This document shows positions 1,953-37,828 of a DNA stretch of 64,000 bases, piece by piece. Below the pieces are notes generated by a model. It was not told where the DNA came from. It searched no databases and was given only the letters and a program-made list of their open reading frames with translations. Origin of the DNA: Algiphilus aromaticivorans DG1253. Its GTDB lineage: Bacteria; Pseudomonadota; Gammaproteobacteria; Nevskiales; Nevskiaceae. The first letter of the stretch is position 1; the number at the start of each line of letters is the position of its first letter. A program made the translations under genes and the position numbers. The stretch covers positions 3,482,501 to 3,546,500 of the forward strand of contig NZ_JPOG01000001.1 of NCBI RefSeq assembly GCF_000733765.1, read 5' to 3'.

Positions 1953-2159
1953 ATGTCCGCAATGCAGTATCAATGCCCCGGCTGCGGGTACATCTATGAT
2001 GAAGCCGAAGGCGATGAGCGGGAGGGCTTCCCGCCGGGGACGCCATGGAGCGCGATTCCCCAGGACTGGTTCTGTCCCGACTGCGCGGTGCGCGACAAGC
2101 CCGATTTCGTCGCGCTCACGCAAGGCGAGGCGAAGGGGGAGGCCCGGTCCGCCTCATGA
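1953..2159 (+). CDS. Rubredoxin (first of tandem pair)
   Basis: 68 residues. It is a one-iron electron carrier with both cysteine knuckles: CPGCGYIYDE near the N-terminus and WFCPDC near residue 45. The start ATG at 1953 lies 4 nt after a clear AGGAGG (1943-1948); an upstream in-frame start is less likely. The second CxxC is followed by AVRDKPDF, one residue longer than in the second rubredoxin and containing an Arg. From memory, this matches the AlkG1-type versus AlkG2-type difference described for alkane-hydroxylase rubredoxins. A 15-residue charged tail follows. In alkane oxidisers such proteins pass electrons from rubredoxin reductase to AlkB, but neither partner is seen in this window. 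Confidence 0.93.
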   Translation: MSAMQYQCPGCGYIYDEAEGDEREGFPPGTPWSAIPQDWFCPDCAVRDKPDFVALTQGEAKGEARSAS

Positions 2160-2202: not shown

Positions 2203-2382
2203 ATGACGGCGAGCCGGAAATGGCAATGCGCTGTATGCGGCTTCATCTACGACGAGGCCGTCGGTTTGCCCGAGGACGGGATACCGCCAGGCACGGCTTG
2301 GGACGATGTTCCCGACGACTGGATGTGTCCGGATTGCTCGGCGCCCAAGTCCGATTTCGACATGGTGGAGGTTGCGCGTTGA
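2203..2382 (+). CDS. Rubredoxin (second of tandem pair), 59 aa
   Basis: A short gene 43 bp after the first rubredoxin. Motifs are [13 protein letters not shown] at the N-terminus and DDWMCPDC with the following SAPKSDF. Residues such as GIPPGT and DVPDDW match the classic compact rubredoxin used by membrane alkane hydroxylases (AlkG2-like). Iron is bound by the four Cys. No strong Shine-Dalgarno is visible, so translation may depend on coupling with the upstream gene. The pair probably forms one transcript, possibly continuing into the GMC dehydrogenase 142 bp downstream. Confidence 0.92.
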
Positions 2383-2524: not shown

Positions 2525-4195
2525 ATGTACGACTACATCATTATTGGTGGAGGATCGGCCGGTTGCGTGTTGGCGAACCGGCTTTCCGAGGACCCCGAGA
2601 CCACCGTCTGCCTGCTCGAGGCCGGACCGGCTGACAAGAGTCCCTTCGTGAGGATTCCGTTGGGCATGGCTGCCCTTCTGCGTTCGCCCAGCCTGAACTG
2701 GGCTTTCAGAACGGAGCCGCAGGCCGGCCTCGGCGGCCGGCGCGGCTATCAGCCGCGCGGCAAGGTTCTGGGCGGAAGCAGCTCGATCAACGCCATGGTC
2801 TATATCCGTGGCCACCGCAGCGACTACGACGGCTGGGCGGAGGCTGGCAATAGCGGCTGGTCCTTCGACGAGGTGCTGCCCTACTTCAAGCGCGCGGAGA
2901 ACCAGGAGCGCGGCGCTGACGCGTTTCACGGCGTCGGCGGACCGCTGAATGTCGCTGACTTGCGCTCGCCGCACGCGATCTGCGATGACTTCATCGCGGC
3001 GGCTGAAGAGCAGGGCCACAAGCGCGTCAGCGACTTCAACGGCCCCGACATGGAGGGCGTCGGCTATTTCCAGGTGACACAGCAGGCGGGCGATCGCTGC
3101 AGCACGGCCAAGGCCTACCTCGAACCGGTTGCCGATCGCCCGAATCTGACGATCATCACGGAGGCCTACGCCACGCGCATCGACATGGAAGGCAAGCGCG
3201 CGGTCGGTGTTCGTTATCGCAAGGACGACGCCAGCCACCACGTCGGTGCACGCAAAGAAGTCCTCGTCAGCGCTGGTGCGTTGCAGTCTCCGCAGCTGCT
3301 CATGCTCTCGGGCATCGGGCCGCGCGAGGAACTCGATCAGCACGGCATCCCGATCTGCCATGAACTGGCCGGTGTCGGGGCCAACCTGCAGGACCACCTC
3401 GACTACGTCACGGCCGTGAAGTCGCCCTCCAAGGAGCCCTTGGGAATCTCCCTGTCGGGTGGCTGGCAGATGCTTCAGGCCCTGCGCACCTACCGACGCT
3501 TCCGGACCGGGAAGCTCACCAGCAATGTGGCTGAAGCGGGTGGCTTTCTGCGCAGCGATCCGAGTCTGGCGGCCCCGGACCTGCAGCTGCATTTTGCGGT
3601 TGCCATCCTCGATGATCACGGTCGCAAACTGCACTCGGGTCATGGCTACTCCTGTCACGTCTGCCTGCTGACTCCCAAGAGTCGGGGTCGGGTCGGCCTG
3701 CACAGCGCCAACCCCATGGCTGCCCCGCGTATCGACCCGGCCTTCCTCTCCGAGGACGAGGATCTCGAGCGATTGGTGAAGGGCTTTCGCAGGATGCAGG
3801 AGATCCTGAATGCCCCCGCCATGGCCAGGCATCGCGGCAGGGATATCTATACCGCCCATGTCCGAACCGACGAGCAGATCCGGTCGGCCATCCGGCAGCG
3901 TGCCGACACGGTTTATCACCCCGTCGGCACCTGCCGCATGGGGCGGGACAGCGACGCGGTCGTAGACGAGCAGCTCCGGGTTCACGGTGTTGCGGGGTTG
4001 CGCGTGGTTGATGCCTCGATCATGCCGACCGTGGTGCGCGGCAACACCAATGCGCCGACCATCATGATCGGCGAGAAGGCTGCCGAGATGATCCGCTTTC
4101 CGGACGTCGCCAGTAGCAGAAGCGCGGCCGTCACGAAGTCGGCCGCCCGGTCTGCGCCGAAGCGGCGGGCGACCCGTGCCACGGAGCCGGCATGA
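2525..4195 (+). CDS. GMC-family FAD-dependent alcohol dehydrogenase (AlkJ/choline-dehydrogenase-like)
   Basis: 556 residues. The N-terminal FAD-binding motif is DYIIIGGGSAGCVLA (residues 3-17). GMC signature 1 is RGKVLGGSSSINAM (residues 78-91) and signature 2 is GALQSPQLLMLSGIG near residue 255. The catalytic pair lies in VYHPVGTCRMG (His about 465) and RGNTNAPT (Asn about 509). Family members oxidise alcohols to aldehydes and pass electrons to the membrane quinone pool. Next to rubredoxins and hydroxylases, a role in oxidising long-chain or terpenoid alcohols (like AlkJ) is likely but inferred. The start has a strong GAGGAGG 6 nt upstream. An Arg/Ala/Ser-rich tail of about 30 residues extends past the conserved core. 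Confidence 0.93.
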   Translation: MYDYIIIGGGSAGCVLANRLSEDPETTVCLLEAGPADKSPFVRIPLGMAALLRSPSLNWAFRTEPQAGLGGRRGYQPRGKVLGGSSSINAMVYIRGHRSDYDGWAEAGNSGWSFDEVLPYFKRAENQERGADAFHGVGGPLNVADLRSPHAICDDFIAAAEEQGHKRVSDFNGPDMEGVGYFQVTQQAGDRCSTAKAYLEPVADRPNLTIITEAYATRIDMEGKRAVGVRYRKDDASHHVGARKEVLVSAGALQSPQLLMLSGIGPREELDQHGIPICHELAGVGANLQDHLDYVTAVKSPSKEPLGISLSGGWQMLQALRTYRRFRTGKLTSNVAEAGGFLRSDPSLAAPDLQLHFAVAILDDHGRKLHSGHGYSCHVCLLTPKSRGRVGLHSANPMAAPRIDPAFLSEDEDLERLVKGFRRMQEILNAPAMARHRGRDIYTAHVRTDEQIRSAIRQRADTVYHPVGTCRMGRDSDAVVDEQLRVHGVAGLRVVDASIMPTVVRGNTNAPTIMIGEKAAEMIRFPDVASSRSAAVTKSAARSAPKRRATRATEPA

Positions 4196-4904
4196 GCCGG
4201 CCCGTCAGGCAGCCATGCCTGCCGTTCCAGCCGCCCGGGCGATACGGTGCGTTCAGGTCTATCGGCGCGCCTGTCGCGGTGCCTGCCCCCTTCGGGGTAG
4301 CCAAAACTACCCGTTTGTGTAGTACCGCGTCCCCAGGGCGGTGCCTACTGTCAGCAGTGACAAAAGCACGAGCGTGGCCTCAAGAGCGCTACGCCATCAA
4401 TGAGGGAGGAGACATGGTGACTGCGGCGTTAAAGCGCTCGCTGGATCGCCCCCCGTGCGATCCCCCCAAGGAGGCAGCCTGCACCCAGCGCGCGGTTTCG
4501 TTGCGGTGTGTGGAAGGCGCCCGGCAAGCGGGTGCTTCTCGCCACGTCCTGACCGGATGGCGCAAGCGGGCAGGCCGCAGCCAGGTGGCGTCCGTGGCGA
4601 AGCTCTGGAGCCGCGCTACGCGATCCCCGACTTTCGGATGGGGTCAAGGTCGCACGCGCATTGGCCCATGCGTCCCCAGAGCAACAGCAATTCTGGAGCG
4701 TCGCTTCTGCCAGGTGCAGACGGCCGGCTTGCTGCGCGCCTTCCGGGCAGCGGGGTGGTCAGGCGCCCCTCCAGTACGGGCTCGCTTCGCAAGCAATGGC
4801 AGCAATCTGCCTGCCGCGACTTGCCATTGAGTCGCCTTTCCCAGCAGGGCGGAAGGGGTCTCCGCTCGCAATTCATTGCCATTGAAATTTAGAAAGAACC
4901 GATA
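4196..4904 (+). other. 709-bp non-coding region / long leader of the RND operon
   Basis: No convincing protein is found here. It starts with small inverted repeats just after the GMC stop (CAGGCA...TGCCTG near 4205), then the palindromic promoter box at 4306. At 4414 there is an ATG with a near-ideal AGGGAGGAG ribosome site, opening a 138-codon frame with no recognisable domain and odd Arg/Ser-rich composition. It could be a leader peptide, a decayed first gene or nothing. If transcription starts just after the -10 near 4350, the RND gene has a leader of about 550 nt. Confidence 0.5.
4306..4351 (+). promoter_or_regulatory. Lux-box-like palindrome plus -10 (regulon site 1)
   Basis: ACTACCCGTTTGTGTAGT at 4306-4323 has 5-bp inverted arms and the CT-N12-AG form of LuxR-family operators. 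After 20 nt comes CCTACTGT (4344-4351), containing a possible -10. The same arrangement appears at 33351 (+) and 45566 (-). The box centre lies about 34 nt from the -10 centre, so it would overlap the -35, as expected for an activator that contacts RNA polymerase. It points toward the RND/DUF1329/DUF1302 cassette. Confidence 0.7.
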
Positions 4905-7376
4905 ATGAACGCAGCCCGTTTCAAAATTGCTCAGTGGATCATGGCGCACCGCGCCGTGGTCAGTGTTCTGTTCGTGATTATTACGATCATATTCGCGGCA
5001 GGGCTTGCGCGTGTTGAAGTTCGCACCATCTTTTCCGACCTGTTGCCGGCGGATGATCCCTTCGTGCAGACCTTTCTGGATCACCCGAATTTCGGTGATC
5101 CGCTGACTGCGGTCGTGATGATCAAGCGTACCGACGGGGAGACGCTGTACAACCCGGAGACGCTGCAGAAGGTCTGGGATTTCACGCGGAGCTTCCATCT
5201 CATCCCCGGGGTGAATCCGGACACCATTCTCTCCATCACCACGGAGAAGGCGCGCTACGCGGAGGCGACGCCTTACGGCATCAATATGCGTCCTCTCATG
5301 GGCGACAAGGTGCCAGAAGATCCAGAGGAGCTCGACGACTTCCACGTTCGCGTCGATCGATCCCCGGTATCGCGCACATACCTCGTTTCAGAGGATGGTA
5401 CCGCCACACTTATGAGTGCGGGCTTCTACGAGGATCAGCTCGAATACGATGTCGTCCTCAAGCATCTCCGCGATCTGGCAGAGGAGGCCTCCGACGAGAA
5501 TCACGAAGTCCATGTGGTCGGGCAGCCCGCCCTCACCGGCTGGGTCTACGAGCTACAGCAGCAGACCTACCTGATCTTCGCGATCACCGTCTTCCTGCTC
5601 ATCATTGCGCTCGCGCTCTATGTGAAGAACACGGCCGGCGTCGTGGTGCCGGTTGTCGTGAGTCTGACCTCCGGAATATGGGGCTTCGGCCTGGTGGGTT
5701 GGCTCAATGCGCCCATCGAGCCGCTGCTGATGATCGTGCCCCTCCTGCTCGTGGCCCGGTCGTTCTCGCATTGCGTGCAGTTCTCGGATCGCTACTACGA
5801 GATCCTGAGCGAAATCGGTGACAAGAAGAAGTCCGCCGAGATCACGATGGGAGTCATGCTCGCCCCCAGCGTCCTCGGCATCATCACGGACGCGCTCGGC
5901 ATTCTCTTCATCGGTCTCGCCCCCATTCCTGCGATGCAGCGCTTTGCGCTGTTCGCGGGCTTCTGGGCGCTCTTCCTGATTCCGACCGGCGTCTTCCTGA
6001 TATCGATCCTGTTGTCGTATCTGCCTACCCCGCGCAACGTCGACGAGATTACCGGCAAGAGCAAGCTCAAGGGGGTGCATAAATGGCAGCAGAGCGCACT
6101 CGCCGGAATCGCCGGCCTCGTTACCGGCAAGAAGGCACCTGCCACAGCAGTGGTAATGATCGTCCTCTCCGCCGGTGCCATCTACACGGCCTTGCAGATT
6201 GAGGTCGGGAACCCGGTGGAGGGCAGCAACCTGCTCTGGGAAGACTCGGAGTTCAATACCGGTGTGCGCACGGTGAACAACCACTTCCCCGGAGTGAACT
6301 CACTGGAGGTGATTCTCGAATCCAAGGAAGAACGAAGCGATCCGAGAACCGCCCGTACGGCCGAGGCCTACATGATCTCCAAGCAAGTCCAGCGCCTTGC
6401 CGAGGAGGGGGTTGGTGAAGGTGGCCTTGCCGCTCGCAATACGCGCTCCTTCGCGGATTTCATGGAAGAGGGCAACCGGCTCTACGCCGGTGGGCATCCG
6501 AAATGGCTGCCGCTCGATCCCGACGACGACTCGACGGGCGCCGCAGCAATGGCGATCTCCTTCGGGCAGAACCCCTTGAACTTCTCACAGGTCAGCGACT
6601 TCGAGTTCCAGAACTCGACCATCTCCCTGTTCTATCGCGACAACAAGCAGGAAACCGTTGATGGCGCGCTCACCACGGCAAGGAAGGCGATCGAGGCCGT
6701 GAGTAACGAGGAGGGTGCGGTGTATGACGGTGAGTCGCTGCGCGTCAGCGCTGACAGGATGACCGGCACCATCCCTCTGCAGCATGCGATGAATACGGTG
6801 GTCGACCGCTACCACTGGCTGATTCTCGCGCTGCTGGCCGGTGCGATCTTCGTGATTGCCAGCTTTGCTTATAAATCGGCGGTCGCGGCCCTGGTCGTTC
6901 TGGTCCCGGTGATGCTGGCCAACTTCTTCCTGACGTCGGCAATGCATCTCATGGGCATCGGCCTCGACATCAATTCGGTGATGGTCGCTGTGCTCGGCGT
7001 CGGTGTCGGTATCGACTACGGCTTTTATCTTCTGTCGCGCATTTGCGAGGAGTATTCCGCCCAGGGTAAGGACTGGGGGAAAGCCATCAAGCACGCCATA
7101 CAAACGACCGGCAAGGCGATTCAGTTCACCGCGGCAATCATGGTTATCGGCATCCTGCCGTGGTATTTCCTGTCAGACCTCAAATTCACTGCGGATATGG
7201 GGCTTCTGCTTTCCGTGATCATGCTCATCAATATGGTGCTCGCATTGATCGTGCTTCCGCTATTGATGTGGTTCCTGAAACCCAAGTTCGCCGCCCGTGA
7301 GGATCTCATGGTCGGGGAAAGCGTTGATCTGTCGCTATTCACAGATCAAGTCGGTGACGCGCATCGACCTGCGTGA
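4905..7376 (+). CDS. RND-superfamily (MMPL-type) transporter
   Basis: 823 residues, inner membrane. The N-terminal membrane helix (about residues 15-35) is followed by a periplasmic loop, a block of helices from about 225 to 390, a second periplasmic domain and a second helix block from about 625 to 800: the duplicated 6+6 layout of MMPL/RND exporters (COG1033). It is shorter than tripartite AcrB-type pumps and resembles hopanoid or lipid transporters. Acidic residues sit in the helices (VGVGIDYGFYLL near 705), as in the proton relay of the family. It heads a cassette with periplasmic DUF1329, a YCF48-like propeller and outer-membrane DUF1302. The substrate is unknown; a hydrophobic lipid-like compound moving across the envelope is an inference. 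Confidence 0.88.
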   Translation: MNAARFKIAQWIMAHRAVVSVLFVIITIIFAAGLARVEVRTIFSDLLPADDPFVQTFLDHPNFGDPLTAVVMIKRTDGETLYNPETLQKVWDFTRSFHLIPGVNPDTILSITTEKARYAEATPYGINMRPLMGDKVPEDPEELDDFHVRVDRSPVSRTYLVSEDGTATLMSAGFYEDQLEYDVVLKHLRDLAEEASDENHEVHVVGQPALTGWVYELQQQTYLIFAITVFLLIIALALYVKNTAGVVVPVVVSLTSGIWGFGLVGWLNAPIEPLLMIVPLLLVARSFSHCVQFSDRYYEILSEIGDKKKSAEITMGVMLAPSVLGIITDALGILFIGLAPIPAMQRFALFAGFWALFLIPTGVFLISILLSYLPTPRNVDEITGKSKLKGVHKWQQSALAGIAGLVTGKKAPATAVVMIVLSAGAIYTALQIEVGNPVEGSNLLWEDSEFNTGVRTVNNHFPGVNSLEVILESKEERSDPRTARTAEAYMISKQVQRLAEEGVGEGGLAARNTRSFADFMEEGNRLYAGGHPKWLPLDPDDDSTGAAAMAISFGQNPLNFSQVSDFEFQNSTISLFYRDNKQETVDGALTTARKAIEAVSNEEGAVYDGESLRVSADRMTGTIPLQHAMNTVVDRYHWLILALLAGAIFVIASFAYKSAVAALVVLVPVMLANFFLTSAMHLMGIGLDINSVMVAVLGVGVGIDYGFYLLSRICEEYSAQGKDWGKAIKHAIQTTGKAIQFTAAIMVIGILPWYFLSDLKFTADMGLLLSVIMLINMVLALIVLPLLMWFLKPKFAAREDLMVGESVDLSLFTDQVGDAHRPA

Positions 7377-7459
7377 CCCCCGATGTAAAGGCAGTCCTTC
7401 GGGAAATCCCCCCGTTGGAACATCCGTTATAAGCGCACAAAGCGTTAGGAGGAGTGAAA

Positions 7460-8848
7460 ATGAGGATACGTAAATACGATGTCGACTACACGCGTCGCCG
7501 CCTGATGCACAACATGGCAATGGGCCTCGGCGCCGGTGTGCTGATGCCCCTGGACAAGCTGTGGGCGAGCGAGACCGGCTTGCAGGATCTCACCAAGGCT
7601 TATCCCGACGAGGCCTTCTCGATCGAGGCGCAAACCAAGGGCAAGATCAAGGTCGGCGATGTCATCGACGCCAATAACCTCGAGCATGTCGAGCATCTGC
7701 TCAGCCCGACGTTCATCCAACAGATTCGCGAAGACGGTAGGCGCATTCGCATCGGTAAGCCGGAAACCGACATCACGCGGATGTTCACCCACCAGAACCT
7801 GCAGAAGACGCTGGAGAACAAGTCATCGGGATACGAGGCGAAGTTCGATAGCACCGGCAATGTCGTCGGTCCGGACGGCAACCCCTGGCAGGGCGGCTTC
7901 CCCTTCCCCAACCCGAAGAACGCCGAGGAAATCCAGGCGAACGCGGCGCTGAGCTGGGGCCGCGCCGACGCCAACTTCTACGCGGTTCGGCAGCGCGATT
8001 TCGACGGCGACGGCAGCCCGCAGTACGCCTACGACTTCGCCTGGGTCGAGCTGCAGATGCAGGCGCGCATGGACGGCAAGGCCTACCGCGGCCACAAGGA
8101 CGAGATCCGTCGCCAGACCGTGTACTTCGAGACCTCCGACGAGGTCAAGGGCACGTCCTTTCTGAGCATCTGGAAGTACGACCAGCGCGAGATCCCGGAT
8201 CTCTACGGCTATCTGCCGCAGTTCCGGCGCGTGCGCCAGTTCCCGGCGAACCAGCGCTTCGAGCCGCTGATCCCCGGCGCCACCTGGTTCCTGACCGACC
8301 CCTGGGCCGCCGGTGATCCAATGCGGACATGGGGCGAGTACAAGATCGTCGAGCGCAAGCCCATGCTGGGTACTACCAGCGGCAACTTCGCGTCCAAGAA
8401 CGACAACTGGGAGCTGCCCGTTCAGGAAGACAACGAGAAGTACTTCGATCTTGAACTCAGCATGATTCCGGATGTGGCCGTCGTCGAATCGAAGCCGACC
8501 GGTTATCCACGCGCCCCTGTGAGTAAGCGTCACGCGTATTTCGACGTGCGCAACTCGACCTATACAAGCTGCATCCGTTTCGACCTGCAGGGCAAGCCCT
8601 GGGTGGATTTCGAAAGCGGCTTTGGCTACTACCAGGATGGGGACCGCATGGTGATTGGCCACGATGGCAAGCATCCGGCGTGGTCCTGGACCTATGTGAT
8701 GAGCTACAACCTCCAGAACAAGCGCATGAGCCGGATCGATCACCCGCGTTCGGCCGCTGGCATTCGTAGCGATTTTCAGATGGACGAGGACTACATGTAC
8801 GACAACTACCTCACGACTTCTGCACAGCAGGCCCTCGGCCGAGTCTGA
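7460..8848 (+). CDS. DUF1329 periplasmic protein, copy 1 (Tat-exported)
   Basis: 462 residues from ATG 7460, chosen because AGGAGG (7447-7452) lies 7 nt upstream. The N-terminus YTRRRLMHNMAMGLGAG is a twin-arginine signal, so it is exported folded. The body matches DUF1329 (for example FRRVRQFPANQRFEPLIPG and the late PAWSWTYVMSYN). DUF1329 proteins are thought to have a LolA/LolB-like lipid-binding fold and nearly always accompany DUF1302 outer-membrane proteins. A lipid-carrier role between the RND protein and the outer membrane is plausible. The paralogue at 12242 shares RRVRQ(F/Y)P(A/T)NQRFEPLIPG. A hairpin follows the stop. Confidence 0.9.
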   Translation: MRIRKYDVDYTRRRLMHNMAMGLGAGVLMPLDKLWASETGLQDLTKAYPDEAFSIEAQTKGKIKVGDVIDANNLEHVEHLLSPTFIQQIREDGRRIRIGKPETDITRMFTHQNLQKTLENKSSGYEAKFDSTGNVVGPDGNPWQGGFPFPNPKNAEEIQANAALSWGRADANFYAVRQRDFDGDGSPQYAYDFAWVELQMQARMDGKAYRGHKDEIRRQTVYFETSDEVKGTSFLSIWKYDQREIPDLYGYLPQFRRVRQFPANQRFEPLIPGATWFLTDPWAAGDPMRTWGEYKIVERKPMLGTTSGNFASKNDNWELPVQEDNEKYFDLELSMIPDVAVVESKPTGYPRAPVSKRHAYFDVRNSTYTSCIRFDLQGKPWVDFESGFGYYQDGDRMVIGHDGKHPAWSWTYVMSYNLQNKRMSRIDHPRSAAGIRSDFQMDEDYMYDNYLTTSAQQALGRV

Positions 8849-8874
8849 GGTGGCGCCGAAGTCGGGATAGTCCA

Positions 8875-8907
8875 GAAGGTGCGCACGCGCGAAGCGTGCG
8901 CACCTTC
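8875..8907 (+). terminator. Strong intercistronic hairpin after DUF1329 copy 1
   Basis: A perfect 14-bp stem, GAAGGTGCGCACGC pairing with GCGTGCGCACCTTC, closes a 5-nt GCGAA loop. Only CCTTTC follows, not a proper U tract, so it may act as a partial terminator or mRNA-stabilising processing site that sets more DUF1329 than downstream product. Confidence 0.65.
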
Positions 8908-8923
8908 CCTTTCGGAATGACAA

Positions 8924-10033
8924 ATGATTTGCCTACATTCGAAAAACGCTTTGAAGTTGTTGTCCACCCTGCTCATTGGCTCGTCATTGGCGGTAGCGCC
9001 GATGGGCTATGCACAGGAGGGCGCCGAGAACGCGGCGGCCGCTGAAAAAGCCAAGGCCGGGCCCGGCGCGCTCGACGAGATATCGGGCAAGGGCCGTGTG
9101 ATCGCCGAGGGCGTCCGTCAGGAACGCTTTTTCGGTATGGATTTTCTTGGCGATCAGGGCATCGTCGTCGGCAATTTCGGCCAGGTGATGATCACCGAAG
9201 ATGGTGGTGAAACCTGGGTCGAGGAAAAAGCGCCCACCGATCTCGCGCTATTGGCCGTAGCGCTTCACGAGGGTGGCGCGATCGCTGTGGGGCAGCAGGG
9301 CTTGGTGCTACTGCGCAGCCCGGACGGCGAATGGCAGGAGGTCTCCGTAGATACCGGGGAGCGCTTGCTGAATGTGGCCGCCAACCGGGACGGTGAGGCG
9401 GTCATCGTGGGGGCCTTCGGCACGCTGTTGGCGTCTTCGGATGGCGGCCGCAACTGGGCAAACGTCGCGCCGCAATGGGCCGAGCTCGCGGCATCCGCGA
9501 ATGTGCCCGCCGACACGACCGGCGCCACCGCCGAGCCCTCGATGTACGACGCCAAGGTGTTCGATGACGGCGTCATGCTCATCGCCGGTGAGCTCGCTTA
9601 TGTGCTGCGTTCCGAAGACGGCGGCAAGAGCTGGGAGTTTGCCAATTTCGCGGAGGCGCTTGCTAAAGGTGAGGAAGCGACGGCCTCTGCAGCCCCGACG
9701 ATCAATGACATTCAGGTGCGCGCCGACGGCACCGGCTTCGCGGTCGGGCAGTCGGGAGTTGTATTCAAGACAAACGATTCCGGTCGTAGCTGGAAGAAGC
9801 TGTCAACGCCCTTAACCGAGATCAACCTGCTCGCCGTCGCCAGCCGCGGCAGCGGCGCCGTCATTGCGGTCGGGATGCGCTCGGCAATATTCAGTGAGGA
9901 CGACGGAGAGAACTGGCAAACGCTGGAGGCTCTCGATCTTGATATCAACTGGTATAGCGCGATCCAAGTGGCGCCAGACGCCAGTCAGATGCTGGCAGTC
10001 GGGCACAGCGGACGCATCATTGGCTTGCAATAA
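8924..10033 (+). CDS. YCF48/BNR-repeat beta-propeller protein, exported
   Basis: 369 residues. A signal peptide spans about residues 1-30 (LLSTLLIGSSLAVAPMGYAQ). The mature part has repeated propeller blades with the Asp-box/BNR pattern (EDGGETW, SDGGRNW, EDGGKSW, NDSGRSWKK, EDDGENW), typical of YCF48-like photosystem II assembly-factor homologues (HCF136). In non-photosynthetic bacteria these are found beside RND/DUF1302/DUF1329 genes; their job there is not established. A scaffold joining inner-membrane pump and outer-membrane channel is a reasonable guess. It lies 75 bp after DUF1329 and 75 bp before DUF1302, within the same cassette. Confidence 0.88.
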   Translation: MICLHSKNALKLLSTLLIGSSLAVAPMGYAQEGAENAAAAEKAKAGPGALDEISGKGRVIAEGVRQERFFGMDFLGDQGIVVGNFGQVMITEDGGETWVEEKAPTDLALLAVALHEGGAIAVGQQGLVLLRSPDGEWQEVSVDTGERLLNVAANRDGEAVIVGAFGTLLASSDGGRNWANVAPQWAELAASANVPADTTGATAEPSMYDAKVFDDGVMLIAGELAYVLRSEDGGKSWEFANFAEALAKGEEATASAAPTINDIQVRADGTGFAVGQSGVVFKTNDSGRSWKKLSTPLTEINLLAVASRGSGAVIAVGMRSAIFSEDDGENWQTLEALDLDINWYSAIQVAPDASQMLAVGHSGRIIGLQ

Positions 10034-10108
10034 GACTTATTAATCGAGCGCGGGGATGGCAGGGGCCAGGCCGCCAAACGCAGCTCGCAACTGGAGGAGG
10101 GGTAATTC

Positions 10109-12142
10109 ATGACGAAGCAACATGTGATTGCAGCGGCAGTGGCTTTCGCGGGGCTGAGCGCCTGTGTCATTCCTGCACAAGCTCAGGAGTTCTACCCGCT
10201 TTCGCGGGTCCTGGAGGACATGAAGGTCAGCACGGCCATCCGCATCGATGCGGCGGCCCGGACCACGTCCGCGCAGAACTTCAATAACCAGGGGACCAAC
10301 TACTTCAACGACGTTTCCGTTGACCGACAGGCATTCGTGCCGCCGGGCGTGGCGGGGCTGCCGCAAACTCAGGGCAACGACTGGGCCATTCCGGTGCCCG
10401 GCTTCAACGATTCGTTCCGCCGTGGCGATCAGGTGCCGATCGACGATCCGGACATGAATCTGCTCCAGACGCGCATCGAGAGCGAGATGGAGCTCAACTT
10501 CTCCCGCTCGCTGCGCTTCGTTGCGCGAGTCCGCGGTGTCTACGATCCCGGAATCTACGACGATTTCGATGCGCGCAGCGTGTCAGGGGCGCAGGGCAGC
10601 GGCATCGTCGGCGGCGATCCCAACCTCTACGCGGGTGAGCCGAACTACATGGAGGCCATCGCGCCGAACGGCCGCAACATCAATCCGCTGGAGTTCTCGG
10701 GTCAGAACTACAACATCGACTTCCCGGCCTTGTTGTTCGAATACCGCACCCGCGGCTTGACCCTGCGCCTCGGTAATCAGCAGATCGCCTGGGGCCAGTC
10801 GATCGCCTTCCAGACCTTCGATATTCCCAACGGCCTCGATTTCCGCCGTCATTCGATTCTGGACCGGGCCCAGGAGGAGTTCAGCGACAAGCGCGTTCCC
10901 ACGCTCTCGCTGCGCGGAACCTATCAGCTGGGCCGGATGGTGATCGACGGCTTTGTCGGCAAGTTCCAGCCGACGATCCTGTCCAACCCGAACACGCCCT
11001 ACAACGTGATCCCCACGCAGTTTACGGTGCGCGAGGATTACTTCCGAGGCGGCTTCGACGAGAAGATCAACGGCGGCGTCCGCCTGAAGGCCGACTACAA
11101 CAATTGGGGCTGGCAGGCCATGGTGGCGTCGCGCTACAACCCGCTGGGCGCCTTCAGCTGGACCCGTAGTGGTGTCACGACGGATGTTGCCGACAATCTC
11201 TTCGGTGGGCTCGCGGCGACGTTATACGGCGTGAAGCGCCCAGGATGTGAAGGTTCCCAGAACCCGCGCAACGGCCCGCTGCCGCAGGCGCTGTGCCGCA
11301 ATTCCGGGAGCCTCGGCGAGGCCCTTTCAAAGACCCCCGTCGTGGCGGAAGCAGGCGGCGTCACCAGCGGGCGCGAGTGGTTCACCTATGCGGCCGAGGC
11401 CAAGCTGAACGGGCTCGAAGGCTGGAACGTGATGCTCAACGAGTTCCCTGATGCCTTCGATGTGTATCTGCGCGAAGCCGACAGTATGGAGGAGCTGAGG
11501 AACCAGCTGGATACGGTCATGTATGCCGCCGGCGGTGGCTATCGCGGCTACATCAATCGCGAGTATTTCCGAGAAGAAGTCTTCGGTCTCGGCGGTAAGT
11601 TCGTCACCACCAGCGACAACAGTCTCCTGAACGCGATCATCCTAAACGTGGAGATGCAGTACACGCCGGAGCGGGTCTTCACCGCCCCGACCCTGTCGAA
11701 CGATCATCTCAAGAGTGATGAGTTCATCGCGTCATTCGTCGCCGAAAAGTGGACGCGCTGGTCGGCGAAGTACCCGGCGGCCTACCTGGTCTTCCAGTAC
11801 CAGTTCCGCAGTGAAAGCGATCTGGTGGGCTTGAATCTGGATGGTTATGGTGGTGACGAGAACACCATTCCGGAAGGCATCCCCAACGCCAACTACTTCG
11901 TGCTGGCCGGCTTCCAGCCCACACCGGGCCGTACCTTCGTCTTCGAGTTCACCAGCCTCTTCGACGCCAGGGGCGGCATCCTGGTCCAGCCCCTGCTGAA
12001 GTGGAACATCGGCAGTGGCTTCAAGGCCGACTTCTTCTACAACTATGTCGACAGTGGCGTGTGGGGCAAGCGCAGCGAGTCGGTCTTCAGCAATGTCGAC
12101 TACGCGGACGAGGTCGCGGTGCGGTTGAGCTACTCCTTCTAG
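10109..12142 (+). CDS. DUF1302 outer-membrane protein
   Basis: 677 residues with a cleavable signal peptide ending near CVIPAQAQ (about residue 28). The body alternates short amphipathic strands and turns. The protein ends in VAVRLSYSF, with the C-terminal aromatic residue that targets beta-barrels to the Bam machinery. The family is DUF1302, large barrels of unknown substrate that pair with DUF1329. A good AGGAGGGG lies upstream of the ATG. In this cassette it is the probable outer-membrane passage for the same hydrophobic substrate handled by the RND protein. The direction (import of substrate or export of product) cannot be read from sequence. Confidence 0.9.
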   Translation: MTKQHVIAAAVAFAGLSACVIPAQAQEFYPLSRVLEDMKVSTAIRIDAAARTTSAQNFNNQGTNYFNDVSVDRQAFVPPGVAGLPQTQGNDWAIPVPGFNDSFRRGDQVPIDDPDMNLLQTRIESEMELNFSRSLRFVARVRGVYDPGIYDDFDARSVSGAQGSGIVGGDPNLYAGEPNYMEAIAPNGRNINPLEFSGQNYNIDFPALLFEYRTRGLTLRLGNQQIAWGQSIAFQTFDIPNGLDFRRHSILDRAQEEFSDKRVPTLSLRGTYQLGRMVIDGFVGKFQPTILSNPNTPYNVIPTQFTVREDYFRGGFDEKINGGVRLKADYNNWGWQAMVASRYNPLGAFSWTRSGVTTDVADNLFGGLAATLYGVKRPGCEGSQNPRNGPLPQALCRNSGSLGEALSKTPVVAEAGGVTSGREWFTYAAEAKLNGLEGWNVMLNEFPDAFDVYLREADSMEELRNQLDTVMYAAGGGYRGYINREYFREEVFGLGGKFVTTSDNSLLNAIILNVEMQYTPERVFTAPTLSNDHLKSDEFIASFVAEKWTRWSAKYPAAYLVFQYQFRSESDLVGLNLDGYGGDENTIPEGIPNANYFVLAGFQPTPGRTFVFEFTSLFDARGGILVQPLLKWNIGSGFKADFFYNYVDSGVWGKRSESVFSNVDYADEVAVRLSYSF

Positions 12143-12190
12143 GCTGCGGTGGTGCGTCCGTTGGGGCGGCGCATCACAAGGCGGCACCTG

Positions 12191-12228
12191 CTCCGGTCTG
12201 CTTCCCGTGGACCGGAGTCTTTCTTTAA
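12191..12228 (+). terminator. Putative rho-independent terminator/attenuator after DUF1302
   Basis: CTCCGGTC (12191-12198) pairs with GACCGGAG (12210-12217) across an 11-nt loop and is followed by TCTTTCTTT. It sits only 14 bp before the start of the second DUF1329, so it may attenuate rather than end transcription. Confidence 0.6.
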
Positions 12229-12241
12229 CCGCGGTGAAACT

Positions 12242-13609
12242 ATGGCAGCGATCAATACGAGCAGACGACGTTTCATGAAGTCGAGCGCGGGCGCGGCGCT
12301 GGGTTCCGGCGTGCTGGCGCCGCTATGGTCGGTGATCGCCAAGGCCGGTGATGTCACCAAGGCCTATCCGGACGAGCTGCTGTCCATCGACGCCTACACG
12401 AAGGGAAAGATCAAAACTGGCGACTACATAACGGCGGATAACGTCGATATCGTCAAGGACCTGATGGAGCCGGCCAAGTACGCGCAGGTCAAGGAAATGG
12501 GGCGCCGCCTGAAGGTGATCCCCACCACGACCGACTACATGAAGCTTGGGCCCTGGGAGTATCTGGAGGCCACGCTGAGCAATCGTGGGAAAGCGCGCTT
12601 CGACGACAAGAAGAACGTCGTCACCAAGGATGGTGAGCCGTGGATCGGGGGCAACCCATTCCCGGATGCCACTACGGCGCTCGAGCTCTTCGCCGGCCTG
12701 ACCATGAGCTGGGGGCGCCATGATTCGAGCGTCTATGCGGTCAAGGAGCAAGATGTTTCGAGCAGCGGGCATATCGATTACGAGTACGACGCGGTGTGGG
12801 CCGAGCTCATGCCCGTCGCGCGCACGGTCGTCGATCCCAAACCCTACTGGGAAGAGCACAAGGACAAGCTGCGCTTCAACTCGGTCATCATCCTGTCGCC
12901 GTCAACGGAGTCAGGCACTTCCTTCGTCAATATCTGGCCTTATGACCAGCACGAGTTCCCGGAACTGTTCGGCTACATCCCGGAGTTCCGGCGCGTTCGG
13001 CAGTATCCGACCAATCAGCGCTTCGAGCCGCTGATCCCCGGTTCGACGCTGTATCTTTCCGACGCTTGGGCGGCCGGCGACCCGCTTCATACTTGGGGTA
13101 ATTACAAGATCATCGGTCGACAGCCGATGCTGGCCGGCGTTTCCGGCGGCTGGAACAGTCAGCACCCGAACTGGGAGCACGGTCTGCACGGCGGCCCAGA
13201 GGGGCAGTCCTTCTTCGACAGTGTCGTCGAGTTGGTTCCCGAGGCGATCATCGCCGAGGCAGAGCCGACCGCCTTCACTCGAGCGCCCATCTCCAAGAAG
13301 CGTGTCTGGTTCGACGCACGCAATCAGATGCCCATCGCGATGGTTTCCTATGACCTCCAGGGCAAGCCGTTCAAGTCATTCGACGGTTGCTACAGCCTGT
13401 ATGACGATGGCGAAAACAAGGTTATGGATGGCAAGCACCCCTATTGGTCCTGGACCTACGTGCATGTCTACAACTTCAAGAGCAAGCGCATCACCCGGCT
13501 GGAGCAGGTGCAGAAGGTTGCTGGAAACCACCGAATGCGCGTGAACGATCCCACGATCTACGACGAATATTTAACGCAACAGGCCATCATGCGCCTCGGT
13601 CAGATCTAG
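12242..13609 (+). CDS. DUF1329 periplasmic protein, copy 2 (Tat-exported)
   Basis: 455 residues from ATG 12242. The N-terminus SRRRFMKSSAGAALGSG is a near-consensus twin-arginine signal (S-R-R-x-F-M-K). The rest is a full DUF1329 domain, collinear with the gene at 7460 (shared DVTKAYPDE/DLTKAYPDE, GKIK.GD, RFEPLIPG, HP.WSWTYV). Having two copies on either side of one DUF1302 barrel suggests paired or sequential carriers, or a heterodimer. The hairpin just upstream may lower its expression relative to the barrel. Substrate unknown. Confidence 0.9.
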   Translation: MAAINTSRRRFMKSSAGAALGSGVLAPLWSVIAKAGDVTKAYPDELLSIDAYTKGKIKTGDYITADNVDIVKDLMEPAKYAQVKEMGRRLKVIPTTTDYMKLGPWEYLEATLSNRGKARFDDKKNVVTKDGEPWIGGNPFPDATTALELFAGLTMSWGRHDSSVYAVKEQDVSSSGHIDYEYDAVWAELMPVARTVVDPKPYWEEHKDKLRFNSVIILSPSTESGTSFVNIWPYDQHEFPELFGYIPEFRRVRQYPTNQRFEPLIPGSTLYLSDAWAAGDPLHTWGNYKIIGRQPMLAGVSGGWNSQHPNWEHGLHGGPEGQSFFDSVVELVPEAIIAEAEPTAFTRAPISKKRVWFDARNQMPIAMVSYDLQGKPFKSFDGCYSLYDDGENKVMDGKHPYWSWTYVHVYNFKSKRITRLEQVQKVAGNHRMRVNDPTIYDEYLTQQAIMRLGQI

Positions 13610-13664
13610 GCAGGAATATCTCCGGGCGCTTAGGCCTCCGTCTAAGCAGACAGCACACAGAGCC

Positions 13665-14372
13665 ATGAAACAGATCTTCGCGGTTTCCAGCGTATTGGTA
13701 GGTCTGGCATCGCAGGTGCTGCTGGTCGCCTTCCTGCTCGATTTCACCCCGGTGGGGATCAATCGGGGCGAGCCCCCGATGCCGTGGCTCGCGATCGTCA
13801 ATAACGTGGCGCTGCTCGCGCTTTTCGCGCTTCCGCACAGTCTGATGGCGCGACCGGCTTTCAAGCGCCGGTGGCGTCTTCTGGTGCCGGATGCCATCGA
13901 GCGTTCCGCCTACATCTTCGTCAGCGGAGCGCTTCTGGCGCTGCTCTGCCTCGCCTGGCAGCCGATGCCGACTCTGCTTTGGCAGCTCGATCACGAGCTA
14001 GCCCGGGGAGCGCTGCGCCTTCTGTTCGCGGCTGGCCTCCTGGTTCTCGCCTGGTCCATTTTCAGTATCGATGCCCTGCATTTTCACGGTCTGAAGCAGG
14101 CATTCGGTCGGCGTGACGATCCGCCGTTCGCCATGCGTGGCCCCTACCGCTACGTGCGCCATCCCATCCAGAGCGGCCTGATCGTCGCCCTGTGGGCCAC
14201 ACCGGATATGACGGCCGGGCATATGCTGTTTGCAAGTGTGCTGACCTTCTACAGCGTCACCGCCTCATTGATGCTCGAAGAGCGGGATTTACGCTCGGCT
14301 ATTGGCGATTCCTACCGGGAATATCGAAGCCGGGTGCCGGCCTTCATTCCCGCGCTACGGCGGCGCGGATAG
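13665..14372 (+). CDS. NnrU/isoprenylcysteine-methyltransferase-like membrane protein
   Basis: 235 residues with about six hydrophobic helices. The signature RGPYRYVRHPIQSG (about residues 161-174) and C-terminal LMLEERDLRSAIGDSYREYR are characteristic of the NnrU/ICMT/MddA superfamily, integral-membrane S-adenosylmethionine-dependent methyltransferases. Family members methylate isoprenylcysteine, methanethiol or phospholipid headgroups; the substrate here is not predictable. Last gene on the + strand of the RND cassette, 55 bp after DUF1329 copy 2, so probably co-transcribed. It could modify the transported lipid or simply be a passenger. Confidence 0.75.
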   Translation: MKQIFAVSSVLVGLASQVLLVAFLLDFTPVGINRGEPPMPWLAIVNNVALLALFALPHSLMARPAFKRRWRLLVPDAIERSAYIFVSGALLALLCLAWQPMPTLLWQLDHELARGALRLLFAAGLLVLAWSIFSIDALHFHGLKQAFGRRDDPPFAMRGPYRYVRHPIQSGLIVALWATPDMTAGHMLFASVLTFYSVTASLMLEERDLRSAIGDSYREYRSRVPAFIPALRRRG

Positions 14373-14771: not shown

Positions 14772-15034
14772 GTTCGTCCTCCCGAAGGTTTTCTATTGAG
14801 TCGTTCTTCAGTGTCCTACGGGTCGGCCGCATTCGGTCCCAATCTATCGTCTAGGCCGGCAGGCCGATGTAGCGCGAAGCACCCGACCGTGGCTCCAGCG
14901 ACAACAAGGCAAAGCGGGTCTCGACGCGGCGGGTTGAGCTTAGGAGAAATGCGCTCTCAGAGGACTGTGGGGCGTAAACTGGCCGGACCAAGAGCCGCGC
15001 GCATGCGACAGACGCGGCCACAAGGAGGATGACG

Positions 15035-17758
15035 GTGAGCACGATAGCGCCCTGGCGGCGAGAGCCGCCGGAATTCGCCTTTGCGGTGGTTCGAACCGCC
15101 GCAGTGGTGCCTCTATTCGAGACATCGGCGTTGCCGGCCCGAGTGCTGTCGGTGACCGCGCCGACCGGCTACGGCAAGACCGTGCTCCTCACCGAACTCT
15201 ATCGACACTTGGCAGGCGTCGGGCTGGAAACGATCTGGATCAGCCTGGACGAGCGCAAGCACAGCACCGAGGACGTCATACAGCTTCTGGAGGCGGCGCT
15301 GGTCGCGGGCGCGGGCCAGCGCGACCTCAATGTGGCGCTGCACGAGAGCGGCGTCCCGGTCGAACGGCGCGTGGAGGCACTGCTCGAAGCCCTCTCGCTG
15401 CTGTCCGACTCGGCCGTGCTCTTCATCGACAACATCAGCTACTGCGAGGACGAGACGCTGGGCCGGCTTCTCGATGCGCTGGTCTTCCAGACGCCGTCGT
15501 GGTTCTCGCTGGTGCTCGGCGGCACGCACGAGCCGCCGCTCAACACCACCCGCGCCAAGCTCGAGGGCAAACTCAAGCAATTCACCTATCGCGATCTTTC
15601 CATGAAGGCCAGGGATGTCGCGAATGTCCTCGGGGAGGATCTCTGCGCGCGCCTCGCTCCGGGCGCGGTCGATCAGATCGCCCAGCGAAGCGAAGGCTGG
15701 CCGGCCGCCGTCCGGCTGATGCAGATCATCCTTGCCGATGCCGACGATCCGGAAGCTACGCTGGCGCGTTTCTCGGGCTCGGACGAGGACCTCGCCGCGA
15801 TGCTGAACCGGCAGGTGCTCACGGTCTTCGACAAGTCGCTGCACACCTTCCTGCTCAAGATTGCCGGCTTGCGCAGCTTTTCGGCCGAACTCTGCGAAGC
15901 CGCAACCGGCGACGACAAGGCGGCACAGCATGTCGCGGAGCTGGTGCGGCGCAACCTTTTCGTGATCCCGCTCGATCGCAACCAGCGCTGGTACCGCCTG
16001 CACGGCCTGTTCCGCGAGTTCCTCGGCGACGAGGCGCGCCGGACCTTGTCCGATGCAACCCGCAAGGGCATCTGGCTGCGCGCGGCGCAATGGTGCGAGC
16101 AGGAGGGCGCTCTGTCGGACGCCATGGCCTATCTGCTCGCAGCCGGGGAAAGCGCGAAGGCGGCCGCGCTTGTGGATCGTGTCGCCTCGCGCTTCGTCCG
16201 GGACAACGGCGATCTGCACAAGTACATCCAATGGGTGGAGCAGCTCCGCGAAGCGGGCCACGAGCTCGGTGCGGAAGTGGAGTTCTGGTACGTCTGGGCG
16301 CTGGTCTTCCATCACCGGTACGACTACGCGCGCTTGCAGCTGGAGCGTTTCAAGGCGCGCATCGCCGCCCGATCCGGCGAGGCGCTGGCCGATGCCGACC
16401 TGCAGCGTCGCATCGGGATCCTGACGACGAGTATCGACACCTACACCGATCACCTCGACGACGCCCGCAAGGCGGCAGACGACTGGCTGGCACAGCGCGA
16501 TGCCGACGACCCCTTCGACGTCGCCACGGTTGCCTGCGTGGCGTCCATCCACGCTTCCGCGGAGCTGGATTTCGCCGCCGCGAACGGCTATGTCCGTACC
16601 GCCCAGGCCAGCATCAAGCAGGCGGACAGCGATTACGGCAAGGCGTGGGCGGGTGTCCTCGCCAATCTGCCCCGGATCCTGCAGGGCGAGTTCGCCGACG
16701 CGGGCCAAGACCTGAACGCGGTACTGAAGGGGGCGCGGTCGCAGCTCGGCGAGCGCACGGGCATGGCAGGCACGCTGGCACTGGCCACCGCCCTCTGCGA
16801 GATCGAGTGCGGCGATGACGCGGCTGCCGAGCAGCTGCTGCGCGACGGCCTGTCACGGGCGCACAGTCACGGCATTCTGGATACGGCGTCTCTTGGACTC
16901 GAAGCCGCCGTCAAGCTGTGGGGCGGAAGCGATCACGGGCAGCGCATTTCCATCGCGGAGCTGCGCGAGATTGCCGCCGGCTACCCGCCGCGCCTGGCGG
17001 CCATGCTTTCCTGCTATCTGGTGCAGCGCTTGTTGCGGCTCGGGCGGAGCGAGGATGCGCGCCTGGAGGCCATGAAGATCGGTCTCGGCACCAACGGAGA
17101 AGGCCGCAAGCCGCCGGAGGCACTGCTCGTCAACGAGCGCGGGCGCGTTCTGTACGCGATGACCGAGCTCGAGCTGCTGCTCCACGAAAGCCACTTGCGG
17201 CAGGCCGAAGCGCAGGCCCGCGAACTCGCCAAGTCGGCCCGCGACGGGGCGCGCTGGGGGCAGCTGGTGGAGCTGGAGCTGATCCAGATGCATATCGCGA
17301 TCTGGTCGCACAATCCCTCGCCCGCGGCCAGTCACTTCACCCGCGCGATCCATCTGGCGGCCAAGCGCCGCATCATGCGTCCCTTCCTCGACCGCATCGA
17401 GCTGGTCGCCGGCCTCGTCAACGAGACCAAGCCGCAGAGCTGGGGCTTCACCCAGAACGAGGAGTGGCAGTTTTTCACCCGGATCTGCGAGCGCCTGCCC
17501 AGCGCCAACAGCGCGATGGCGGAGCAGCTCGAATCCCTGGATGTCGAGACCCAGTTGCTCGAAAGCCCGACCGCGCGCGAGATGGAACTGCTGGCGCTGA
17601 TCGAGGCCGGCCTGTCGAACCAGCAGCTCGCCGACCGCCTCTCGGTGTCGGTCTCCACGGTCAAGTGGCACCTCTACAACCTCTACGCCAAGCTCGGGGT
17701 ATCCAGCCGCTCGGCGGCGGTGGCCAAGGCGCGTGCGCTGAATCTGCTGACGCGCTAG
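15035..17758 (+). CDS. MalT/AlkS-type LuxR transcriptional regulator
   Basis: 907 residues from GTG 15035, preferred because AGGAGG (15023-15028) is 6 nt upstream, whereas ATG 15029 abuts it. Walker A APTGYGKT is at about residues 42-49, with a Walker-B-like AVLFIDNIS near 128. A long helical TPR-like middle follows, then a C-terminal LuxR helix-turn-helix (TAREMELLALIEAGLSNQQ to VSVSTVKWHLYNLYAKLGV). Such regulators bind an inducer and ATP, oligomerise and activate transcription; AlkS for alkanes is the best-known catabolic example. It lies directly upstream of the XylM/XylA-like monooxygenase genes on the same strand and probably controls them. Confidence 0.92.
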   Translation: MSTIAPWRREPPEFAFAVVRTAAVVPLFETSALPARVLSVTAPTGYGKTVLLTELYRHLAGVGLETIWISLDERKHSTEDVIQLLEAALVAGAGQRDLNVALHESGVPVERRVEALLEALSLLSDSAVLFIDNISYCEDETLGRLLDALVFQTPSWFSLVLGGTHEPPLNTTRAKLEGKLKQFTYRDLSMKARDVANVLGEDLCARLAPGAVDQIAQRSEGWPAAVRLMQIILADADDPEATLARFSGSDEDLAAMLNRQVLTVFDKSLHTFLLKIAGLRSFSAELCEAATGDDKAAQHVAELVRRNLFVIPLDRNQRWYRLHGLFREFLGDEARRTLSDATRKGIWLRAAQWCEQEGALSDAMAYLLAAGESAKAAALVDRVASRFVRDNGDLHKYIQWVEQLREAGHELGAEVEFWYVWALVFHHRYDYARLQLERFKARIAARSGEALADADLQRRIGILTTSIDTYTDHLDDARKAADDWLAQRDADDPFDVATVACVASIHASAELDFAAANGYVRTAQASIKQADSDYGKAWAGVLANLPRILQGEFADAGQDLNAVLKGARSQLGERTGMAGTLALATALCEIECGDDAAAEQLLRDGLSRAHSHGILDTASLGLEAAVKLWGGSDHGQRISIAELREIAAGYPPRLAAMLSCYLVQRLLRLGRSEDARLEAMKIGLGTNGEGRKPPEALLVNERGRVLYAMTELELLLHESHLRQAEAQARELAKSARDGARWGQLVELELIQMHIAIWSHNPSPAASHFTRAIHLAAKRRIMRPFLDRIELVAGLVNETKPQSWGFTQNEEWQFFTRICERLPSANSAMAEQLESLDVETQLLESPTAREMELLALIEAGLSNQQLADRLSVSVSTVKWHLYNLYAKLGVSSRSAAVAKARALNLLTR

Positions 17759-17897
17759 CGGGCCGACGCGGCAGCGCCCGCCGTGACCGGCCGCCCCGAT
17801 GACCAAACTAAGGGTTGGGGAAGCGCCCGGTGCGCACACGCACCCTCGGTCTCGACATTCCGAATGGCCCGCGCCGAAACCGGGCCTGGAGCGAGAC

Positions 17898-34904: not shown

Positions 34905-34946
34905 AAGCCAGCGAGCAAACGGGCGCAGACCCGACACGGGGGCGGT

Positions 34947-36185: not shown

Positions 36186-36198
36186 AGACGAGGCCAAA

Positions 36199-37818: not shown

Positions 37819-37828
37819 GGAGAAAACA

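Follow-up and report, generated by a model that had tools for sequence, protein, structure and literature searches.

What does a compact set of pump, carrier and barrel genes do when it lies among genes for the breakdown of hydrocarbons? The question is raised by a 64,000-nucleotide stretch of Algiphilus aromaticivorans DG1253 (NZ_JPOG01000001.1; genome G000, 3.8 Mb), referred to here as the window, in which a first-pass annotation had described six neighbouring genes as an envelope cassette. The six genes were confirmed, all on the plus strand, at 4905-14372, with intergenic gaps of 77, 75, 75, 99 and 55 bp, and in a Pfam scan MMPL, DUF1329 (twice), PSII_BNR and DUF1302 all exceeded their curated cut-offs, in agreement with the family names given to the five core genes. 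In order, these encode a predicted HAE3-like RND/MMPL inner-membrane pump (M, 4905..7376; MMPL 84.5 bits), a DUF1329 carrier with a twin-arginine translocation (Tat) signal (type A, 7454..8848; 138 bits), a YCF48-type beta-propeller with an N-terminal hydrophobic segment in its hydropathy profile (Y, 8924..10033; PSII_BNR 68 bits, solved Ycf48 relatives at E 1.8e-10), a DUF1302 outer-membrane barrel (O, 10109..12142; 53.3 bits against a cut-off of 23.2) and another DUF1329 carrier with a Tat signal (type B, 12242..13609; 175 bits), for which the longest open reading frame (ORF) starts at 12149 and the likely ATG is that at 12242. The annotation held that two DUF1329 copies flank one barrel, which is what the gene order gives, and that the parts could span the envelope, which the component families and the structural models support. 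We lean towards reading M-A-Y-O-B as an RND-driven, envelope-spanning transporter of the AmeABCD kind described in Castellaniella defragrans, with two specialised carriers, that serves hydrocarbon catabolism. That the cassette is a trans-envelope transporter of a hydrophobic compound we regard as highly probable, and that its two carriers are not interchangeable as probable.

The two carriers of the window are 44-45% identical to each other, and both are far from the other 16 DUF1329 matches in the same genome. In a tree of 98 DUF1329 proteins (96 from related loci plus the two of the window), a fully supported branch separated all 29 copies in the pump-YCF48 position from 24 of the 26 copies that follow a barrel, the two exceptions being a fragment (L094) and a copy from a cassette with one copy in view (L097). 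When the tree was enlarged by 107 copies, the types of the new copies being assigned by profile score, the midpoint root parted the 50 new A copies from the 50 new B copies without exception, and seven B-like copies from other genomes of the class formed separate branches. Because these seven sit apart and 21 reference proteins formerly on the A side now lie across the midpoint root, the deepest root is unsure. Judged from these trees, A and B are ancient, separate paralogues. The Tat motifs that the annotation had seen in both proteins withstood a motif check, and a twin-arginine motif was found in 56 of 59 A-side and in all 30 anchored B-side proteins; the count leaves out nine more B-side rows that had no anchor. 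Among the other 16 DUF1329 matches of the genome there was no convincing Tat signal, the lone sense-strand pattern match (L052) lying upstream of the likely start. No lipobox pattern was found in the 59 A-side and 30 anchored B-side proteins, in which anchoring of the LolB type was thus not seen. In a comparison of 76 A and 69 B sequences, 71 alignment columns were more than 95% identical across both types, and the differences were modest: three columns were conserved above 85% within each type yet different between them, ten were conserved in B only and one in A only.

The positions of the two types were followed in related genomes. A first set of 76 loci was drawn from named bacterial genomes with both window DUF1329 proteins as queries, each locus reaching at most 10 kb to either side of the DUF1329 match and several ending at contig ends. 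At least three kinds of component were present in 36 of the 76, and the order M-A-Y-O-B in 19 of these 36, with extra genes between O and B in two (L066 and L084); L090 read A-Y-O-B-M, and other loci of the set had a DUF1329 gene without any further component in view. The genera among the 19 include Solimonas, Zhongshania, Panacagrimonas, Azoarcus, Denitromonas, Dechloromonas, Methylibium and Zavarzinia, and the five-gene cassette recurs in gamma-, beta- and alphaproteobacteria. Two record titles look wrong: the pump of L079, titled Verrucomicrobia, is near-identical to that of G774, from the window's family, and L110, titled Klebsiella pneumoniae, groups with gammaproteobacterial metagenome-assembled genomes. 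At E<=1e-60, and with the window's own genome in every count, 48 of the 85 genomes of the order carried the DUF1329 subfamily, as against 6 of 369 in the class and 2 of 398 in the phylum; loci fetched from the order share some strains with the first set (e.g. G785 and Solimonas flava), and the two sets are not independent. At least two matches were present in 47 of the 48 order genomes (the exception, G793, has one weak match), and two same-strand copies 3.5-6 kb apart were found in 27 of the 48, among the matches listed. All 20 order loci fetched for having such a copy pair (19 genomes) displayed A-Y-O-B; the pump lay before A in 16, only after B in three and was not in view in one, and L261 has a pump before A and a second one after B. 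As for the 20 order genomes without a close pair among the matches listed, 17 had both types (in some of these genomes the two turned out to share a cassette), and three (G774, G778 and G788), with one match outside those listed, were not fully typed.

Detached B copies (20 counted by hand, an interrupted copy in L228 being excluded) were followed in 12 cases by a same-strand pump gene, and in the pump tree ten of these pumps fell into one supported clade of 13 rows, together with the second pump of L261 and the pumps of L204 and L063. Because 12 detached B copies have a pump gene of their own and these pumps cluster in the tree, the system exists, as far as gene order and phylogeny indicate, either as a single cassette or in a split form, M-A-Y-O plus B-M2. 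B-like Tat-family DUF1329 genes were also seen at L212-L219 (G091, G314, G213 and G120), with no same-family pump, propeller or barrel in the stretches fetched, and in G776, from the window's family, this DUF1329 subfamily is represented by 18 matches. The sixth gene of the window (13665..14372, +), which the annotation had counted as an NnrU member of the cassette, was rejected as such. It passed the Pfam NnrU model narrowly (29.5 bits against a cut-off of 24.7) and scored 186.5 bits with NCBIfam MddA, below that model's cut-off of 270; on these scores it is closer to an MddA/ICMT-like membrane methyltransferase. No relative at E<=1e-10 was found in the 76 related loci, and we therefore place it, as an accessory gene, outside the conserved cassette.

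The LolB-like fold proposed by the annotation was upheld for DUF1329-B by an AlphaFold2 (AF2) model (pLDDT 90, pTM 0.90), in which residues 142-454 match LolA-type structures and about 100 preceding residues are extra. The matches comprised P. gingivalis LolA3 (9tp6; Z 22.1, root-mean-square deviation 2.3, 237 aligned), the solved DUF1329 protein 4z48 (Z 19.4), P. gingivalis LolB (Z 11.1) and P. aeruginosa LolA (2w7q; Z 9.4, root-mean-square deviation 4.0, 176 aligned), and a half-open barrel of the LolA/LolB type is confidently predicted for B. Proteins of the LolA fold normally carry lipid-modified cargo, and LolB is itself a lipoprotein. The DUF1302 protein, described by the annotation as an outer-membrane barrel, gave an OprD-like AF2 model (pLDDT 83.6, pTM 0.84) with a partly helical insertion at about 360-475; its nearest matches were OprD/Occ porins (Z about 20), and AlgE reached Z 18.3. 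The predicted folds speak for a carrier and a pore, not for a direction of transport. The hydropathy of the pump fits about 12 transmembrane (TM) helices with two large loops, and its best NCBIfam model was HAE3 TIGR00921 (138.6 bits, below the cut-off of 351.9). The TM4 motif SH(C/S)(V/I)Q was kept in all 33 aligned pumps of the subfamily, and the TM10 motif GIDYG(I/F)Y in all but that of L069, whose reading frame is broken. Within the window's own genome SHxVQ was present in four pumps from four-family cassettes and absent from five other MMPL proteins shown, and these four-family-cassette pumps formed a separate branch of the pump tree, far from the clade of the window pump.

The annotation had also pointed to a promoter motif common to the cassette and an acyl-CoA catabolic operon. 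This motif is real and rare, and the evidence for box and regulator is now stronger than that first given. The pattern CAAAACTACCC-N6-GTAG was exact at 4302 and 33347 and had two mismatches at 45550 on the minus strand; a version with a spacing of 7 before GTAG gave nothing useful, the right spacing being 6. Written as ACTACCC-N4-GKGTAGT and allowing at most one mismatch, the box occurred at three places in the 3.8-Mb genome, all inside the window and each exact on one strand. The first (4306..4323, +; ACTACCC-N4-GTGTAGT) lies about 600 bp 5' of the pump gene; the second (33351..33368, +), a perfect palindrome, lies about 140 bp 5' of the acyl-CoA operon at 33507; the third (45549..45566, -) is placed between a pair of SDR and alcohol dehydrogenase (ADH) genes and the divergent gene of a MalT-like LuxR regulator, REG2 (45618..48446, +; first ATG at 45618, longest ORF from 45528). 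The backward control pattern gave five matches genome-wide at one mismatch or fewer (three in an earlier version of the pattern), and because the control also matches, the claim for the box rests on the confinement of the exact sites to 1.7% of the genome and on the conservation of the box among relatives, rather than on the count by itself. In the first set, 9 of 31 regions of up to 700 bp (one of the 31 being that of the window) had the box 5' of the pump gene at two mismatches or fewer; in the order set the box stood there in 22 of 27.

REG2 is most likely the regulator that reads this box, as judged from sequence and co-occurrence. Relatives of at least 40% identity were found at 11 of the 27 order loci, all 11 with the box; another 11 loci had the box only, none the regulator only and five neither (Fisher p 0.06), so that the association by locus alone is only suggestive. 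The count by genome was stronger: across the 85 order genomes, REG2 relatives (E<=1e-150) and carriers occurred together in 39, carriers only in nine, REG2 only in two and neither in 35 (Fisher p about 5e-13, uncorrected for kinship). In 28 of 38 genomes (the 39 with both, minus G793, whose weak match is not listed) REG2 lay on the same contig as a listed carrier gene and no more than 45 kb from it. At 12 box-bearing loci (L058 and the 11 order loci) regulators with 43-58% identity to REG2 were in view, and REG1, a further MalT-like LuxR regulator of the window (15029..17758, +), was 23-27% identical to these where it could be aligned. Other box-bearing loci had only more distant MalT-like genes (L080, L126, L255, L256 and L259; 27-33% to REG2) or none in view. 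REG1 was set aside as cassette regulator in favour of REG2: the lone REG1-like case is the regulator adjoining the cassette at L088 in Solimonas aquatica (52%), where no box precedes the pump gene. REG1 may nonetheless act locally.

The neighbourhood of the cassette points to hydrocarbons. A gene for an AlkB-type alkane monooxygenase (L269:15769-16977; solved alkane 1-monooxygenase at E 2.1e-179) lies a short way to the left of the window and is followed by the gene of a MalT-like LuxR regulator of 919 aa, whose 5' part (1..339, -) is in the window and which extends past its left edge. Then come a DDE insertion sequence (IS) transposase (631-1614, -), which stands between the AlkB/regulator pair and the rest, two rubredoxins (1926..2159, +, Pfam Rubredoxin 68.7 bits; 2203..2382, +, 79.3 bits), a GMC oxidoreductase recognised by profile matches and putatively acting in alcohol oxidation (2525..4195, +), and the cassette. 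A similar setting was found on the plasmid of Methylibium petroleiphilum PM1 (NC_008826), which carries two inverted copies of the five-gene cassette (L263:20016-38823) with identical YCF48 proteins and pumps 99% alike; one copy has a shortened DUF1302 gene and an ISMpe1 transposase directly after it. After the PM1 cassettes lie genes for an FAD oxidoreductase, a LuxR regulator, two rubredoxins, a hydrolase, a transposase and an alkane 1-monooxygenase. Identities between PM1 and the window (or its left flank) were 58% for AlkB, 43% for the regulator, 59% and 74% for rubredoxins 1 and 2, 46% for the pump and 59% for B. A published list for PM1 gives the methyl tert-butyl ether monooxygenase Mpe_B0606, the rubredoxin B0602, the ATP-dependent regulator B0601 and the rubredoxin reductase B0597 (PMC4517660, in excerpt); from gene order we infer that the AlkB/rubredoxin stretch is this Mpe_B0597-B0606 cluster, the record itself carrying other tags. 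In Algiphilus L117 the same AlkB (67%) and regulator (48%) stand 5' of the pump. Other neighbours were acetone-carboxylase-like genes (Solimonas), beta-oxidation genes (S. aquatica and Azoarcus), a P450 (an alphaproteobacterium) and thiolases. Because relatives of the membrane hydroxylases were in view at only 6 of 43 first-set and 3 of 60 second-set loci, AlkB is a recurring but not a constant partner of the cassette. Since an AlkB monooxygenase and two rubredoxins adjoin it, the substrate of the cassette is likely to be hydrocarbon-like. To this extent the annotation, which had proposed that a hydrocarbon- or lipid-like growth substrate is moved, agrees with our results; that the cassette imports a growth substrate is less certain, the transport-type data on the related AmeABCD system being read by their authors, in the excerpts available, as export (PMC6394551).

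The same annotation had stated that co-occurrence of these families is known, but did not name the precedent AmeABCD. In the excerpts of the source, loss of AmeABCD lowers both tolerance to and growth on non-functionalised monoterpenes (PMC6394551). Like the window cassette, this system combines a DUF1302 outer-membrane protein, a LolA-superfamily DUF1329 protein, a YCF48/COG4447 protein and an RND pump (HAE3-type in AmeABCD, HAE3-like in the window) among genes for the catabolism of apolar compounds. Its order, as described, is DUF1302-DUF1329-YCF48-RND with one DUF1329, in contrast to the M-A-Y-O-B of the window with two DUF1329 types, both with Tat signals, and the MalT-like regulator and box proposed here set the window further apart. 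The comparison was made by description, with pumps of four-family cassettes from the own genome and from Aromatoleum EbN1 as stand-ins, which were 24-28% identical to the window pump. The DUF1302, DUF1329 and YCF48 components of AmeABCD are thus present in the window; its gene order and its single DUF1329 are not, and we class the cassette among variants of the AmeABCD kind instead of calling it a member of AmeABCD. In P. putida, likewise compared by description, the pairs PP_0765/PP_0766 and PP_2018/PP_2019 are needed on Tween 20, and co-folding gave a strong contact of PP_2019 with PP_2018 and weak contacts of PP_0766 with PP_2019 and PP_0765; DUF1302, DUF1329, a periplasmic protein and an efflux-type pump are shared, although at two separate loci and with one DUF1329 in the available text (PMC10866462). 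The 'Nanopod' cluster of the benzene-degrading ORM2a consists of a porin-like protein, DUF1329, YCF48 and MMPL co-expressed during hydrocarbon degradation; in its excerpt one DUF1329 is listed, a universal stress protein is present and the authors leave the direction open (PMC13101534). In Thalassolituus, TOL_3187, an MMPL pump joined to a LolA-like domain, is reported as 42-fold up on the n-C28 alkane; it is a single fused protein with a domain order like that of the L043 cassette of the own genome, not of the window (PMC6304351, in excerpt). The proposed logic is Lol-like: a pair of soluble carriers that share a fold, of which one would work close to the inner membrane and the other close to the outer. 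The window differs from the Lol pathway in an RND instead of an ABC pump, an outer-membrane barrel, carriers in which no lipobox was seen in either type and an extra N-terminal part. No description of the two-DUF1329 order, the box or the split module was found in the open PubMed Central literature (subscription papers and preprints lay outside the search), and no motif words of the box were found in the available text of PMC12997753. The two-carrier order, the box and the split module are apparently new; the four-family kind is known from AmeABCD.

In the mechanism that we propose, the five core proteins would form a single proton-driven, envelope-spanning transporter for a hydrophobic compound. 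The pump would take an apolar molecule (a hydrocarbon, or the alcohol or acid derived from it) from the inner membrane or the periplasm and pass it to DUF1329-A; DUF1329-B would partner the DUF1302 barrel, and YCF48 may help the complex to assemble or dock. A MalT-like LuxR activator, most likely REG2, would read the box and switch on the transporter, the beta-oxidation-type operon and the SDR/ADH pair together during metabolism of the compound. We slightly favour outward transport, which would protect the membrane during growth on the compound, since pumps of this RND class carry their substrates out of the inner membrane. A more elaborate version, which we put forward tentatively and consider rather unlikely, is a Lol-like but proton-driven two-carrier relay for hydrocarbons or their oxidised products, in which pump and barrel each have a LolA-fold carrier of their own, Tat carriers are exported folded and possibly ligand-bound, and in the split form one pump might push and the other pull the same stream of cargo. 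Several observations weigh against the transporter as proposed. The AmeABCD Nile Red data, in the excerpts of the paper, are weak, with accumulation in the mutant only slightly higher and efflux kinetics almost identical (PMC6394551). The position held by Asp-Tyr in TM10 is occupied by Ser-His in the TM4 core (halves compared by eye), so that coupling may differ from that of MmpL3-type pumps. The box was missing, at four or more mismatches, in the other 22 of the 31 first-set regions, before the pump gene at 5 of the 27 order loci and, at two mismatches or fewer, in two PM1 plasmid stretches and the EbN1 stretch. Some cassettes show only A (e.g. L065, L069, L076 and L088) or only B (L058) in view, and a single carrier may therefore suffice in cis. 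Seven of the 20 detached B copies had no component in the stretch fetched, and in one case the pump lay on the opposite strand; B-like copies without any cassette component in the stretches fetched were also seen in four genomes of the class. Finally, many of the genomes compared are close kin, and the counts are not independent.

The same machine might run inward, the barrel admitting the compound, B and then A crossing the periplasm, and the pump or the membrane delivering it to inner-membrane AlkB-type hydroxylases; we regard this as possible, though doubtful. The box common to cassette and catabolic operons agrees with it, as does the likeness of the barrel model to OprD/Occ channels, which are known as uptake channels, although MmpL3 is an exporter and the exporter AlgE scored nearly as high as the OprD-type porins. 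According to the available excerpts, the P. putida relatives are needed for growth on Tween 20 (PMC10866462) and the Castellaniella mutant shows normal growth on acetate, also when limonene up to 5 mM is present besides it, both of which would suit uptake; yet the ame mutant does worse at high limonene even with acetate, which fits toxicity (PMC6394551). That the second DUF1329 is a mere duplicate in a plain AmeABCD-like exporter with interchangeable carriers we think unlikely. The identity of A and B, their many shared columns and the cassettes with one copy only would be expected of duplicates; on the other hand, type tracks position across classes, both types are present in 17 of the 20 order genomes without a close pair among the matches listed (the other three not fully typed), and the ten B-conserved columns differ in A. 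Remodelling of the cell's own outer membrane as a solvent adaptation, with lipids or hopanoids moved outward and the growth substrate not carried, seems to us improbable indeed: a weak match of the pump to HpnN-type models (54 bits against a cut-off of 751.85) and the lipid-related role of the LolA fold of B point that way, whereas the genes around the cassettes are catabolic and differ from pathway to pathway (AlkB, acetone-carboxylase-like, P450, thiolases), and no hopanoid genes were found among the window genes scanned. The outward, two-carrier transporter remains our preferred reading.

The remaining genes of the window are in part related to those discussed. Downstream of REG1 lie an AlkB-family (FA_desaturase) membrane hydroxylase (17799..19040, +; solved alkane 1-monooxygenase at E 2.4e-20), which is 70% identical to a gene at L063 of Solimonas aquatica, a locus that also carries B, Y and M copies, and a 2Fe-2S/FAD/NAD reductase recognised by profile matches (19053..20141, +). 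At 27401-29266 a fatty-acid-desaturase-type hydroxylase is fused to a Fer2 domain, and relatives of 40-56% identity were seen close to cassettes of Zavarzinia and of G749, a genome from the window's genus. The acyl-CoA catabolic operon behind the second box (33507..39766, +) comprises an acyl-CoA dehydrogenase, an SCPx-type thiolase, an acyl-CoA ligase, a saccharopine-dehydrogenase-like/DUF5938 protein and an SDR. Downstream of the third box (43107..44934, -) are a zinc-type dehydrogenase (longest ORF 43107-44405) and an SDR (44176-44934), with an ORF of 165 aa without a Pfam match (44954-45451) between these genes and the box. The genome as a whole has an unusually large set of such families (18 DUF1329 and 19 DUF1302 matches, with several separate pump cassettes); a 16S search of it gave no match. 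At L043:5390-8593 (about 2177-2181 kb) a single frame of 1067 aa encodes both an MMPL pump and a LolA/DUF1329-like domain and is followed by a DUF1302 match.

How apolar hydrocarbons pass the Gram-negative envelope, or are excluded from it, is a long-standing open question. The cassette would provide a compact and testable system in which to address it, with two paralogous carriers conserved in position, a module that can be split, an 18-bp box together with its predicted regulator, and a repeated association with AlkB-type monooxygenases, and Methylibium petroleiphilum PM1 is a named strain in which a two-copy cassette lies beside alkane-monooxygenase genes.

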